DNA of 34,623 bases from Parcubacteria group bacterium (GTDB taxonomy: Bacteria; Patescibacteriota; JACQLU01), in NCBI GenBank assembly GCA_016203935.1, contig JACQLU010000015.1, forward strand, positions 1-34,623, written 5' to 3'. Both the position numbers and the translations under genes were made by a program. Below the pieces are notes generated by a model. The model was given only the letters and a program-made list of their open reading frames with translations, had not been told where the DNA came from and did no database searches. Each line of letters begins with the position of its first letter. Position 1 is the first letter of the stretch. Shown here piece after piece: positions 190 to 33,038 of the stretch.

Positions 190-408
190 TCATTTCTTCC
201 TCCCTCCCTTCCATATCCACCGGATAATCGCCACAAGCATGACGATGGTGAAGATGGTTCCGATCAGCGGCGAGAACAGGTTGACGAAGTTTGTGAGCCA
301 CTGACCCACCAACCCTGGCTGAACCTTTTCAATAAGGTACAGAGCCACGGCGAGCGTGATCAGTGTCCTCGCGGGAGTACCAAAGAGAAATCTCGTCCAG
401 CTTCGCAT
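190..408 (-). CDS. Small two-helix membrane protein, unknown function
   Basis: A 72-residue protein with a basic N-terminus (MRSWTRFLFG) and two hydrophobic stretches at about residues 14-30 and 45-65. It ends in the basic tail WKGGRKK. This is a typical small inner-membrane hairpin protein, and I recognise no family. The start is fixed by a strong SD (AAGGAGG, 5 nt before the ATG). It has its own promoter at 441-468 and terminator at 157-188, so it is a single-gene transcript. Existence is well supported by signals on both sides; the function is unknown. Confidence 0.75.
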   Translation of the reverse strand: MRSWTRFLFGTPARTLITLAVALYLIEKVQPGLVGQWLTNFVNLFSPLIGTIFTIVMLVAIIRWIWKGGRKK

Positions 409-440: not shown

Positions 441-468
441 AGCATATTTAGTAAGATCGTGCAATCAA
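441..468 (-). promoter_or_regulatory. Promoter for the small membrane-protein gene
   Basis: Minus strand: -35 TTGATT (468-463), 16-nt spacer, -10 TATGCT (446-441). It gives a short leader to the SD-led gene at 408. The -35 overlaps the U-tract of the upstream terminator. Confidence 0.55.
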
Positions 469-495
469 AAATCAGGGCCGCTCGCTGAGCGACCC
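461..495 (-). terminator. Intrinsic terminator of the 475-847 mini-ORF transcript
   Basis: Minus strand: GGGTCGCTC, loop AGC, GAGCGGCCC, then TGATTTTTGATT. The 9-bp stem is nearly the same sequence as the terminator at 169-188. It closes the transcript started at 820-847. Confidence 0.75.
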
Positions 496-521
496 CTCGG
501 GGTTAACACTTCCTTAAGACC

Positions 522-668
522 CTACCTCCTTACATCAAGCACCAGATTGAAAAGGGAGACCGTATCACTATCCTGTGCGTCGGAGTCCCTCACTCCAACA
601 CCGATAAGGACAGGGTGCGGTCCACTGACTGGAGAAAAAGATTTCCAGTCAGCGAGATGTTGGATCAC
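522..668 (-). CDS. Possible 48-aa protein, GTG start overlapping an upstream mini-ORF
   Basis: Open frame GTG ATC CAA ... ending at TAG, 48 residues (VIQHLADWKSFSPVSGPHP... ending NLVLDVRR). Composition is protein-like, with no low complexity. The GTG overlaps the TGA of the preceding 18-codon ORF (GTGA), the arrangement of translationally coupled genes. The SD abuts the GTG, so initiation there is odd. A -1 frameshift joining both ORFs is the alternative. The same DNA also folds into hairpins (627-650, 585-599), so a structured non-coding RNA is a third possibility. I recognise no family. Confidence 0.4.
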   Translation of the reverse strand: MIQHLADWKSFSPVSGPHPVLIGVGVRDSDAQDSDTVSLFNLVLDVRR

Positions 669-721
669 CTCCTTCGGGATACCTCACCGTTGAGTTCCTC
701 GAAGCATCCATGACCCTTCAT
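665..721 (-). CDS. Possible 18-aa mini-ORF
   Basis: ATG at 721-719 is preceded by AAAGGAG at good spacing and reads MKGHGCFEELNGEVSRRR before TGA. An in-frame ATG at 742 would add seven lysine-rich residues. The last codons (AGG AGG TGA) form the extended SD at 674-660. It could be a leader peptide coupled to the ORF at 522-668, or the N-terminus of one frameshifted protein. Confidence 0.35.
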   Translation of the reverse strand: MKGHGCFEELNGEVSRRR

Positions 722-772
722 CTTCTTCTCCTTTCTTACCATAAAAGGAAAACTAAATACGACCTGCCTCCA

Positions 773-793
773 CTAGTGAGTACGGTCGCACAT
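773..793 (-). CDS. Possible six-residue leader peptide
   Basis: AAAGGAGG lies 9 nt before ATG TGC GAC CGT ACT CAC TAG, giving MCDRTH. The first start codon after the promoter at 820-847 encodes only six residues. It may be a leader peptide, or the SD may belong to an RNA structure. Confidence 0.25.
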   Translation of the reverse strand: MCDRTH

Positions 794-819
794 GATGTTG
801 CACCTCCTTTAATACTTTT

Positions 820-847
820 ATCGTAGCGGACTATCGACGCGTGTCAA
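820..847 (-). promoter_or_regulatory. Strong sigma70-type promoter of the mini-ORF transcript
   Basis: Minus strand: TTGACA (847-842), 16-nt spacer, TACGAT (825-820). The -35 hexamer is perfect. The expected transcript runs from about 812 to the terminator at 475-495, roughly 330-350 nt. The -10 block GCTACGATA also occurs in the groES promoter. Confidence 0.7.
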
Positions 848-31973: not shown

Positions 31974-33038
31974 ATGTCTTTATCCATCGGTATCGTTGGC
32001 CTTCCCAATGTGGGCAAATCCACCCTCTTTACCGCGCTTACGAAAAAGCAGGCGGAGATTGCTAATTACCCTTTTACCACCATTGATCCCAATGTAGGGG
32101 TGGTTCCTGTGCCTGATCCGCGGGTTACTCACTTAGCGCAACTCTCCCATTCTCAAAAGACTATTTATACCACCGTCAACTTCGTTGACATCGCCGGCCT
32201 GGTGAAAGACGCTCATAAAGGCGAGGGACTTGGCAATAAATTCCTCTCCCACATCCGCGAAGTGGATGCCATCGCCGAGGTGGTGCGGTTCTTTACCGAT
32301 CCCGATATCACCCATGTAGCTGATAGTATCGATCCAGCACGAGACGCCGAGATCATTAATCTCGAACTTGTCCTCGCTGATCTCGCAACTGTCACCGAGC
32401 AACTTGCCAAGAAAGAGAAACCAGCCACAATGGGTGATAAGGAACTGGCATTTGAGGTGGCGATTCTCCAAAAGATCAAGCATACCCTCGAGGCAGGCAA
32501 ACTTGCCAATACGCTCCCATTTGATCCTCTCGAAGAGTGGCCGTTTGTAAAATCGCTTAATCTTCTTACCATAAAGCCGATCCTCTATATCGCCAATGTT
32601 GACGAGGACGCGGTGACAAAATCGTTCACATTTCCCTATCAACCGCTCATTACCATCTCTGCCAAGATCGAAGCCGAACTCGCTGGACTTTCCGATACTG
32701 AAGCTAAGGAGTATCTCAAGAGTTTAGATCTTGCGACATCGGGCCTTGAAAAACTGATCCAGACGGCCTACGAGACCCTTGGCCTCATCACCTTTTTAAC
32801 CACCGGTGAAGACGAAACGCGGGCGTGGACTATAAGACGCGGTACAAGGGCACCCCAAGCCGCCGGTGTAATTCATAGCGACTTTGAGAAAGGCTTCATC
32901 CGCGCTGAGACGATCTCTTACGATGACTTCATAAAAGCCGGCTCTGAAGTTCGAGCAAAAGAGCTAGGCCTCATGCGCACCGAAGGGAAGGAATATATAG
33001 TGCGAGACGGCGACATAATGCATTTCAGATTCAACTAA
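31974..33038 (+). CDS. ychF: Redox/ribosome-associated GTPase YchF (OLA1 family)
   Basis: 354 residues; an Obg-related P-loop NTPase that prefers ATP and associates with ribosomes. Motifs: G1 GIVGLPNVGKSTLFTALTKK, G2 region NYPFTTIDPNVG, G3 DIAGLVKDAHKGEGLGNKFL, the YchF-type NVDED in place of NKxD, and a C-terminal TGS domain (LITFLTTGEDETRAWTIRRG to VRDGDIMHFRFN). Length is normal. No SD. The DNA for its last 16 residues recurs, diverged, at 33888-33938 behind the next gene. Confidence 0.97.
   Translation: MSLSIGIVGLPNVGKSTLFTALTKKQAEIANYPFTTIDPNVGVVPVPDPRVTHLAQLSHSQKTIYTTVNFVDIAGLVKDAHKGEGLGNKFLSHIREVDAIAEVVRFFTDPDITHVADSIDPARDAEIINLELVLADLATVTEQLAKKEKPATMGDKELAFEVAILQKIKHTLEAGKLANTLPFDPLEEWPFVKSLNLLTIKPILYIANVDEDAVTKSFTFPYQPLITISAKIEAELAGLSDTEAKEYLKSLDLATSGLEKLIQTAYETLGLITFLTTGEDETRAWTIRRGTRAPQAAGVIHSDFEKGFIRAETISYDDFIKAGSEVRAKELGLMRTEGKEYIVRDGDIMHFRFN

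Follow-up and report, generated by a model that had tools for sequence, protein, structure and literature searches.

A leader-like or small RNA candidate beside groEL in a Patescibacteria genome shares the anatomy of a recurrent phage element

Between groEL and the gene for a 72-aa membrane protein, a Patescibacteria genome carries a compact minus-strand unit in which the 20-mer AAGGAGGTGATCCAACATCT is followed immediately by an 11-bp hairpin. By sequence comparison, this pair has the anatomy of a recurrent phage element composed of GGAGGUGAUCC-N-R-CAUCU and a hairpin. The unit may represent a leader-like or small structured RNA with its own promoter and terminator, whose core would be two start-codon-less elements, each an extended Shine-Dalgarno (SD) sequence plus hairpin, that capture 30S subunits; we place this tentative reading slightly below an even chance. 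What the analysis shows directly are the features of the sequence, its likeness to the phage element, and the nucleotide constraint and hairpin of that element.

The window, meaning the whole stretch of 34,623 nucleotides analysed (contig C54), belongs to a genome of 1.0 Mb in 97 contigs. Among 379 other genomes of the phylum, the best UvrA identities reach only ~66-68%, which indicates that no close relative is present in the compared set. Reading along the minus strand, groEL (2627-993) is followed by its terminator (940-907), a repeated palindrome (889-850), the unit, the 72-aa gene and the terminator of that gene (189-168). Table 1 presents the parts of the unit. The original prediction described a promoter-to-terminator layout, and this proved real: a promoter-like site and a terminator hairpin bracket the unit in the interval between groEL and the 72-aa gene. 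The promoter is near-consensus, matching at 10 of 12 positions, and is the best of four such sites in 3 kb. Also borne out were the three AAGGAGG sites (minus strand, starting at 809, 674 and 531), the frames of 6, 18 and 48 codons, the GTGA overlap between the GTG start of ORF3 and the stop of ORF2, and internal hairpins at 654-623 and 601-577. Of the 17 AAGGAGG occurrences on both strands of the whole window, three fall within these 386 nt, against 0.19 expected (P ~0.001). AAGGAG lies 10 nt from the AUG of ORF1 and 6 nt from that of ORF2, inside the range of the window's SD-bearing genes. We infer that the unit is transcribed and that ORF1 and ORF2 are translated.

Table 1. Features of the minus-strand unit and its downstream gene, in window positions.
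Feature	Position	Strand	Basis
Sigma-70-like promoter, TTGACA-16-TACGAT; predicted transcription start near 813	820..847	-	sequence
Element copy 1, shortened, AAGGAGGTG---CAACATC; doubles as SD of ORF1	794..809	-	pattern match
ORF1, 6 codons (MCDRTH), well-placed SD; possible leader peptide	773..793	-
Hairpin hp1 after copy 1, 8 bp plus inner stem, z -2.8	757..791	-	fold
Hairpin hp2, masks SD of ORF2	726..752	-	mean pair probability 0.95
ORF2, 18 codons (MKGHGCFEELNGEVSRRR); ends CGA AGG AGG TGA within element copy 2	665..721	-
Element copy 2, full, AAGGAGGTGATCCAACATCT; possible AGGUG/CAUCU mini-hairpin	655..674	-
Hairpin hp4 directly after copy 2, 11 bp, z about -4.1	623..654	-	fold
Alternative long hairpin hp3 (AGATG/CATCT, GGGTCAT/GTGATCC, CTTCG/CGAAG); would mask copy 2	655..723	-	mean pair probability 0.89-0.99
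ORF3, 48 codons from GTG; without coding signature or relatives found	522..668	-
Hairpin hp5, 22-23 bp with internal loops	558..622	-	fold
Third AAGGAGG, without start codon, no close hairpin after	525..531	-
Intrinsic-terminator-like hairpin, 10 bp, T-rich tail	474..496	-
Downstream 72-aa membrane-protein gene, own SD (420)	190..408	-

The original prediction also claimed a perfect SD of about 15 nt at 674-660. Since the 16S rRNA of this very genome ends in ...GGATAGATCACCTCCTTT (L011), the perfect match shrinks to 12 nt, AAGGAGGTGATC. The duplex of copy 2 with this tail is nevertheless the strongest among the sites tested, at -22.3 kcal/mol, where the 0.1 percentile of the background lies at -21.3; with a general bacterial tail, copy 2 would form a 16-bp duplex of -30.7 kcal/mol. 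The 16S 3' tail itself, GATAGATCACCTCCTTT (L011 403-419), carries a change just ahead of the usual GATCACCTCC. No ATG, GTG or TTG follows the AAGGAG at 674 at a distance of 3-12 nt; copy 2, like a Stab-SD, has a strong SD and no functional start codon nearby. In Firmicutes, strong SDs that lack an initiation codon are established stabilisers of mRNA (review PMC3997798), and Stab-SD denotes such a start-codon-less stabiliser, for example in the cryIIIA leader (Agaisse and Lereclus 1996, as cited in PMC3997798).

From these properties a mechanism may be outlined. Copy 2 would pair with nearly the whole single-stranded 16S tail and, having no start codon, could hold a 30S subunit that does not initiate. 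That subunit may have just been released at the ORF2 stop codon inside the element, and the hairpin that follows copy 2 would serve as a block. As a likely consequence, the RNA would be protected or controlled much as by a Stab-SD, or the downstream 72-aa gene would be modulated; a role as a ribosome sponge is less likely. The binding of 30S subunits is inferred, as is any influence on expression or on the stability of the RNA. The suggestion that an over-long SD stalls or sequesters ribosomes has accordingly been retained as the leading mechanism, given the absence of a usable start codon and the match to a start-codon-less phage element with a hairpin, while its premise of 15-nt perfect pairing has been given up. 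One point against the 30S-capture reading is that copy 2 is masked in the global fold predicted for the window RNA.

The phage counterpart was found by a search seeded from the window's own 20-mer, with the IMG/VR set picked by exact pattern. In IMG/VR the exact sequence AAGGAGGTGATCCAACATC occurs in 14 contigs representing at least seven unrelated contexts, and every one of them continues with T. For AAGGAGGTGATCCAAC there are about 24 independent contexts, 7-8 of which continue with ATCT against 0.1 expected. No contig was gained when position 11 or 18 of the 20-mer was allowed to vary freely, whereas the same change at position 15 added 25, nearly all with G, so that this position is A or G. 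A scan for GGAGGTGATCCNRCATCT returned at least 120 stretches. Many phage copies lie within ORFs, where they read [EKQ]GGDP[AT]S. Among the synonymous codings of EGGDP[AT]S, the form GAAGGAGGTGATCC-N-R-CATC accounts for 26 of 68 contexts and most other codings occur once, genomes of about 65% GC included; the dominance of this exact form argues for a constraint that acts on the nucleotides. An explanation at the level of the peptide is insufficient, since the exact nucleotides are over-represented among the synonymous codings and noncoding copies also exist. Nine coding copies in an EVI[QR]HL frame may be coincidences. The 20-mer is absent from the E. coli genomes searched, and in the phage loci tested none of the Rfam models matched the element. 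It was likewise not found in the literature, in a search mostly outside subscription journals, and an earlier description is possible.

Directly after the element, the phage RNA tends to fold. Over 94 unique contexts, the window's own among them, the 45 nt following CATCT were compared with shuffled sequence and gave a mean z of -1.70 (SE 0.21) in 63 coding-like copies and -1.29 (SE 0.25) in 31 noncoding-like copies. Upstream flanks have a z near 0, and the next downstream windows have 0.04 (coding) and -0.68 (SE 0.30; noncoding). GGAAGC appears no more than 57 nt downstream in 16 of 95 contexts, with about 1.2 expected, and several of these are G[AG]TGGAAGC loops. Within the 20-mer, RNAalifold pairs AGGUG with CAUCU, a helix that shows only wobble-type changes. 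One pair of the Streptococcus hairpin is C-G in seven sequences, U-A in four and U-G in one; this covariation is modest and confined to one pair, with 22 of 500 shuffles reaching its score. Carried over to the phage element, the proposed contrast of codon-type with stem-type variation yielded nucleotide constraint and a hairpin, and limited compensatory change. Across 12 aligned Streptococcus copies, GTG[AG]TC and ATCT are preserved, while some show an altered GGAGG core; in phages whose flanks are related, the variants of this core are AGTAGG, GGTAGG, GGAGCG and GGAAG. Because the GGAGG core is not always intact, pairing with 16S rRNA may not be the whole function. An AGATG partner upstream of CATCT is not enriched in the phage copies, which makes hp3 a peculiarity of the window.

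The gene context of the phage copies is recurrent as well. In 22 of 30 noncoding copies, the stop codon of the upstream frame ends -1 to +5 nt from GGAGG, and this frequency suggests that terminating ribosomes may deliver subunits to the element. The gene following the element encodes a head scaffolding protein in four loci (L093, L179, L138 and L369), and in the first three a major head protein comes next. Elsewhere the element sits within a portal protein gene, just ahead of a domain matching 'RNA ligase' (L259), or within a prohead-protease-like ORF (L095), and further copies adjoin lysin and terminase genes. When INPHARED was searched with a Streptococcus leader, several divergent phages matched only at about positions 104-152 of the query, that is, the element plus its hairpin. 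Its usual place in Streptococcus phages is 100-160 nt ahead of the genes for scaffold and capsid. The annotated scaffold gene starts 141-174 nt after the match start in PH15 and Javan246, 247, 262, 407 and 576, and 338 nt after it in Javan628, with a small ORF between; in phage 109751 the element precedes a hypothetical ORF and the major capsid gene. Variants in phi20c, Javan562 and SM1 (L409, L412 and L414) precede the terminase gene and not the scaffold gene. A TTGAC after the Streptococcus element was considered as a promoter and rejected on inspection, as no consistent -10 follows it.

Turning to Pseudomonas phages, the element occurs in the tRNA arrays of PAK_P3 (L344, 1202) and PAK_P1 (L345, 1003). 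Small RNAs have been described from PAK_P3 (PMC4933390); the element shares their tRNA-array region, where it follows a promoter annotated as putative, but sRNA1 and sRNA2 as annotated are transcripts next to the element and distinct from it. A 32-nt form of the element matched 171 phage records, 169 of them from Pseudomonas phages (part of the records were inspected). Compared with the Stab-SD as portrayed in PMC3997798, the phage element shares a strong SD without an associated start codon and a proposed function in 30S occupancy, and some of its copies are in leaders of presumably highly expressed genes such as capsid genes. Differences are the greater length of its SD, with 13 nt in the consensus, the conserved NRCAUCU and the hairpin that come next, its frequent position at the stop codon of an upstream frame, and the existence of copies read in frame within coding sequences.

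How closely the window fits this pattern has to be read with the origin of the search in mind. Copy 2 (674-655) matches the GGAGGTGATCC-N-R-CATCT core at 20 of 20 positions, partly by construction because copy 2 seeded the consensus. The independent parts of the match are the hairpin and the second copy. A hairpin 0-4 nt after CATCT was recognised as a feature after the motif had been defined, and it is present at copy 2 (654-623). Copy 1 repeats the layout, with hairpin 791-757 three nt after it. Across 380 Patescibacteria genomes, this one included, AAGGAGGTGATCCNRCATCT occurs once; the loose form AAGGAGGTGN{0,3}CARCATC occurs twice in 357 genomes, both times in this unit (809-794 and 674-656). 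Neither form was found in about 356-379 other Patescibacteria genomes. Unlike many phage copies, which adjoin head genes (scaffold, capsid, portal or protease), the unit has groEL and the 72-aa membrane protein gene as neighbours. Most noncoding phage copies have a stop codon adjacent upstream; in the window the stop codon of ORF2, a frame of only 18 codons, falls inside copy 2 (667-665) and not ahead of it. For the unit as a whole, homologues were found neither by blastn in 58 other Patescibacteria genomes nor by a covariance model of 725-556 in 379 other genomes or in 38 relatives of G142 (overlapping sets). Among 80 GroEL-matched loci, blastn and, on 30 of them, the covariance model also gave none near groEL, plasmids gave none, and phages gave only one weak 34-nt match.

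It is decidedly unlikely, in our view, that the phage likeness is accidental, an ordinary strong SD having met one of many intergenic hairpins by chance or convergence. Complementarity to 16S rRNA alone would favour AAGGAGGTGATC, intergenic DNA here is commonly rich in hairpins, and a 13-mer match also falls within a galE-like coding region. Yet, given the 12-nt SD, the remaining C-N-R-CATCT has a chance of ~1/8192 per site by our own calculation, the thirteenth base agrees with the general consensus but not with the 16S rRNA of this genome, and at a distance of 120 nt stands a second element-like copy with a hairpin, with no such copy elsewhere in 357 genomes. We rate lower still the possibility of a structured noncoding RNA whose activity would lie in its fold or in an antisense role, with the SD-like stretches as mere stem strands and copy 2 pairing with the ORF2 region in hp3. 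The minus-strand RNA does fold strongly, at -139 kcal/mol (z -5 to -6); its pair probabilities are mostly high and it forms five strong hairpins, and the plus strand of the unit folds less well (z -4.1). Other intergenic stretches of the same window, however, reach z -4.7 to -6.4, so that a strong fold is not by itself evidence of a noncoding RNA, and extreme z as proof of one was rejected on these controls. The unit resembles the structured families of Rfam 15 in being a compact tandem-hairpin RNA and differs in that none matches it; the phage loci tested gave only tRNAs, none at the element. It is neither RNase P RNA nor tmRNA, the genome's own copies of which are on contigs C33 and C9. An RNA of this type would also leave the phage-element identity and the properly spaced SD/AUG pairs unexplained.

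Two further alternatives take the short frames as the starting point. A leader for transcription or translation attenuation of the 72-aa gene, with ORF1 and ORF2 as leader peptides, hp1-hp5 switching with ribosome position and 496-474 as a conditional terminator, is unlikely. In its favour stand a promoter, two well-spaced SD/start pairs with the second SD masked by hp2, a predicted pairing of the 5' end (807-795) with 509-499 just ahead of the terminator, and a gene only 66 nt past that terminator. Known leader-peptide attenuators and erm-type translational attenuation share the promoter, the short ORF with a strong SD, the masked second SD and the terminator; they differ in that no inducer-specific leader peptide is recognised here and the downstream gene has its own SD. 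Against such a leader, moreover, no strong alternative antiterminator stem is evident, and the distant 72-aa relatives are few and weak, with no such unit evident upstream of two of them. The 72-aa gene may or may not be under the control of the unit. A small operon for one to three short proteins of 6, 18 and 48 aa, which the original prediction half suggested, is very unlikely. ORF1 and ORF2 have good SDs, ORF2 and ORF3 overlap as GTGA, and of all frames in the region ORF3 scores best (z 1.9 against shuffles). The description of ORF3 as protein-like did not hold, since it scores -0.015 bits per codon, above the median of other frames (-0.47) and below the 5th percentile of in-frame chunks of real genes (0.057). 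Its SD directly abuts its start codon, and searches of the 48-aa and joined 66-aa sequences recovered no protein family; they covered Pfam, PHROG and NCBIfam for ORF3 and NCBIfam for the joined frame.

Returning to 30S capture, a broader version can be formulated from the sequence comparisons, although we regard it as doubtful. An undescribed but widespread RNA element, made of an extended anti-16S stretch, NRCAUCU and a hairpin, would capture terminating or free 30S subunits without initiation. In phages it would sit at the boundaries between genes, notably ahead of those for scaffold and capsid, as well as in frame within head genes; this Patescibacterium would have taken it up twice, the two copies forming the core of a small RNA beside groEL. 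If confirmed, it would connect the odd, over-long SD in a reduced bacterial genome with an RNA element that recurs near phage head genes and apparently has no name, offer the testable idea that phages tune capsid production via 30S capture at stop codons, and provide a clear case of a 16S-tail-complementary sequence used for something other than the choice of a start codon.

Several minor observations concern the surroundings of the unit. No phage gene families were recognised beside it except for one ORF 31 kb off; this 354-aa ORF (31974-33038) matches PHROG 23947 over almost its full length (E 1.7e-137) on a contig that is otherwise bacterial. The 72-aa membrane protein has sparse, weak relatives in Patescibacteria (motif FLGTPRRFLA) and a sub-threshold similarity to a phage holin model. 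The intergenic stretch upstream of groEL (2628-2973) folds strongly on both strands (z -4.9 and -6.4) and includes an inverted repeat of 38 nt that is imperfect. The palindromic repeat at 850-889 (TTATCTTATCCCCTCTTAAGATAAGAGGGGATTGAGGGGAG on the minus strand), which separates the groEL terminator from the promoter of the unit, has at least six further copies on other contigs of the genome. Lastly, the terminators at 474-496 and 168-189, which flank the 72-aa gene, have a common stem, GGTCGCTC...GAGCGGCC, that occurs nowhere else in the genome.
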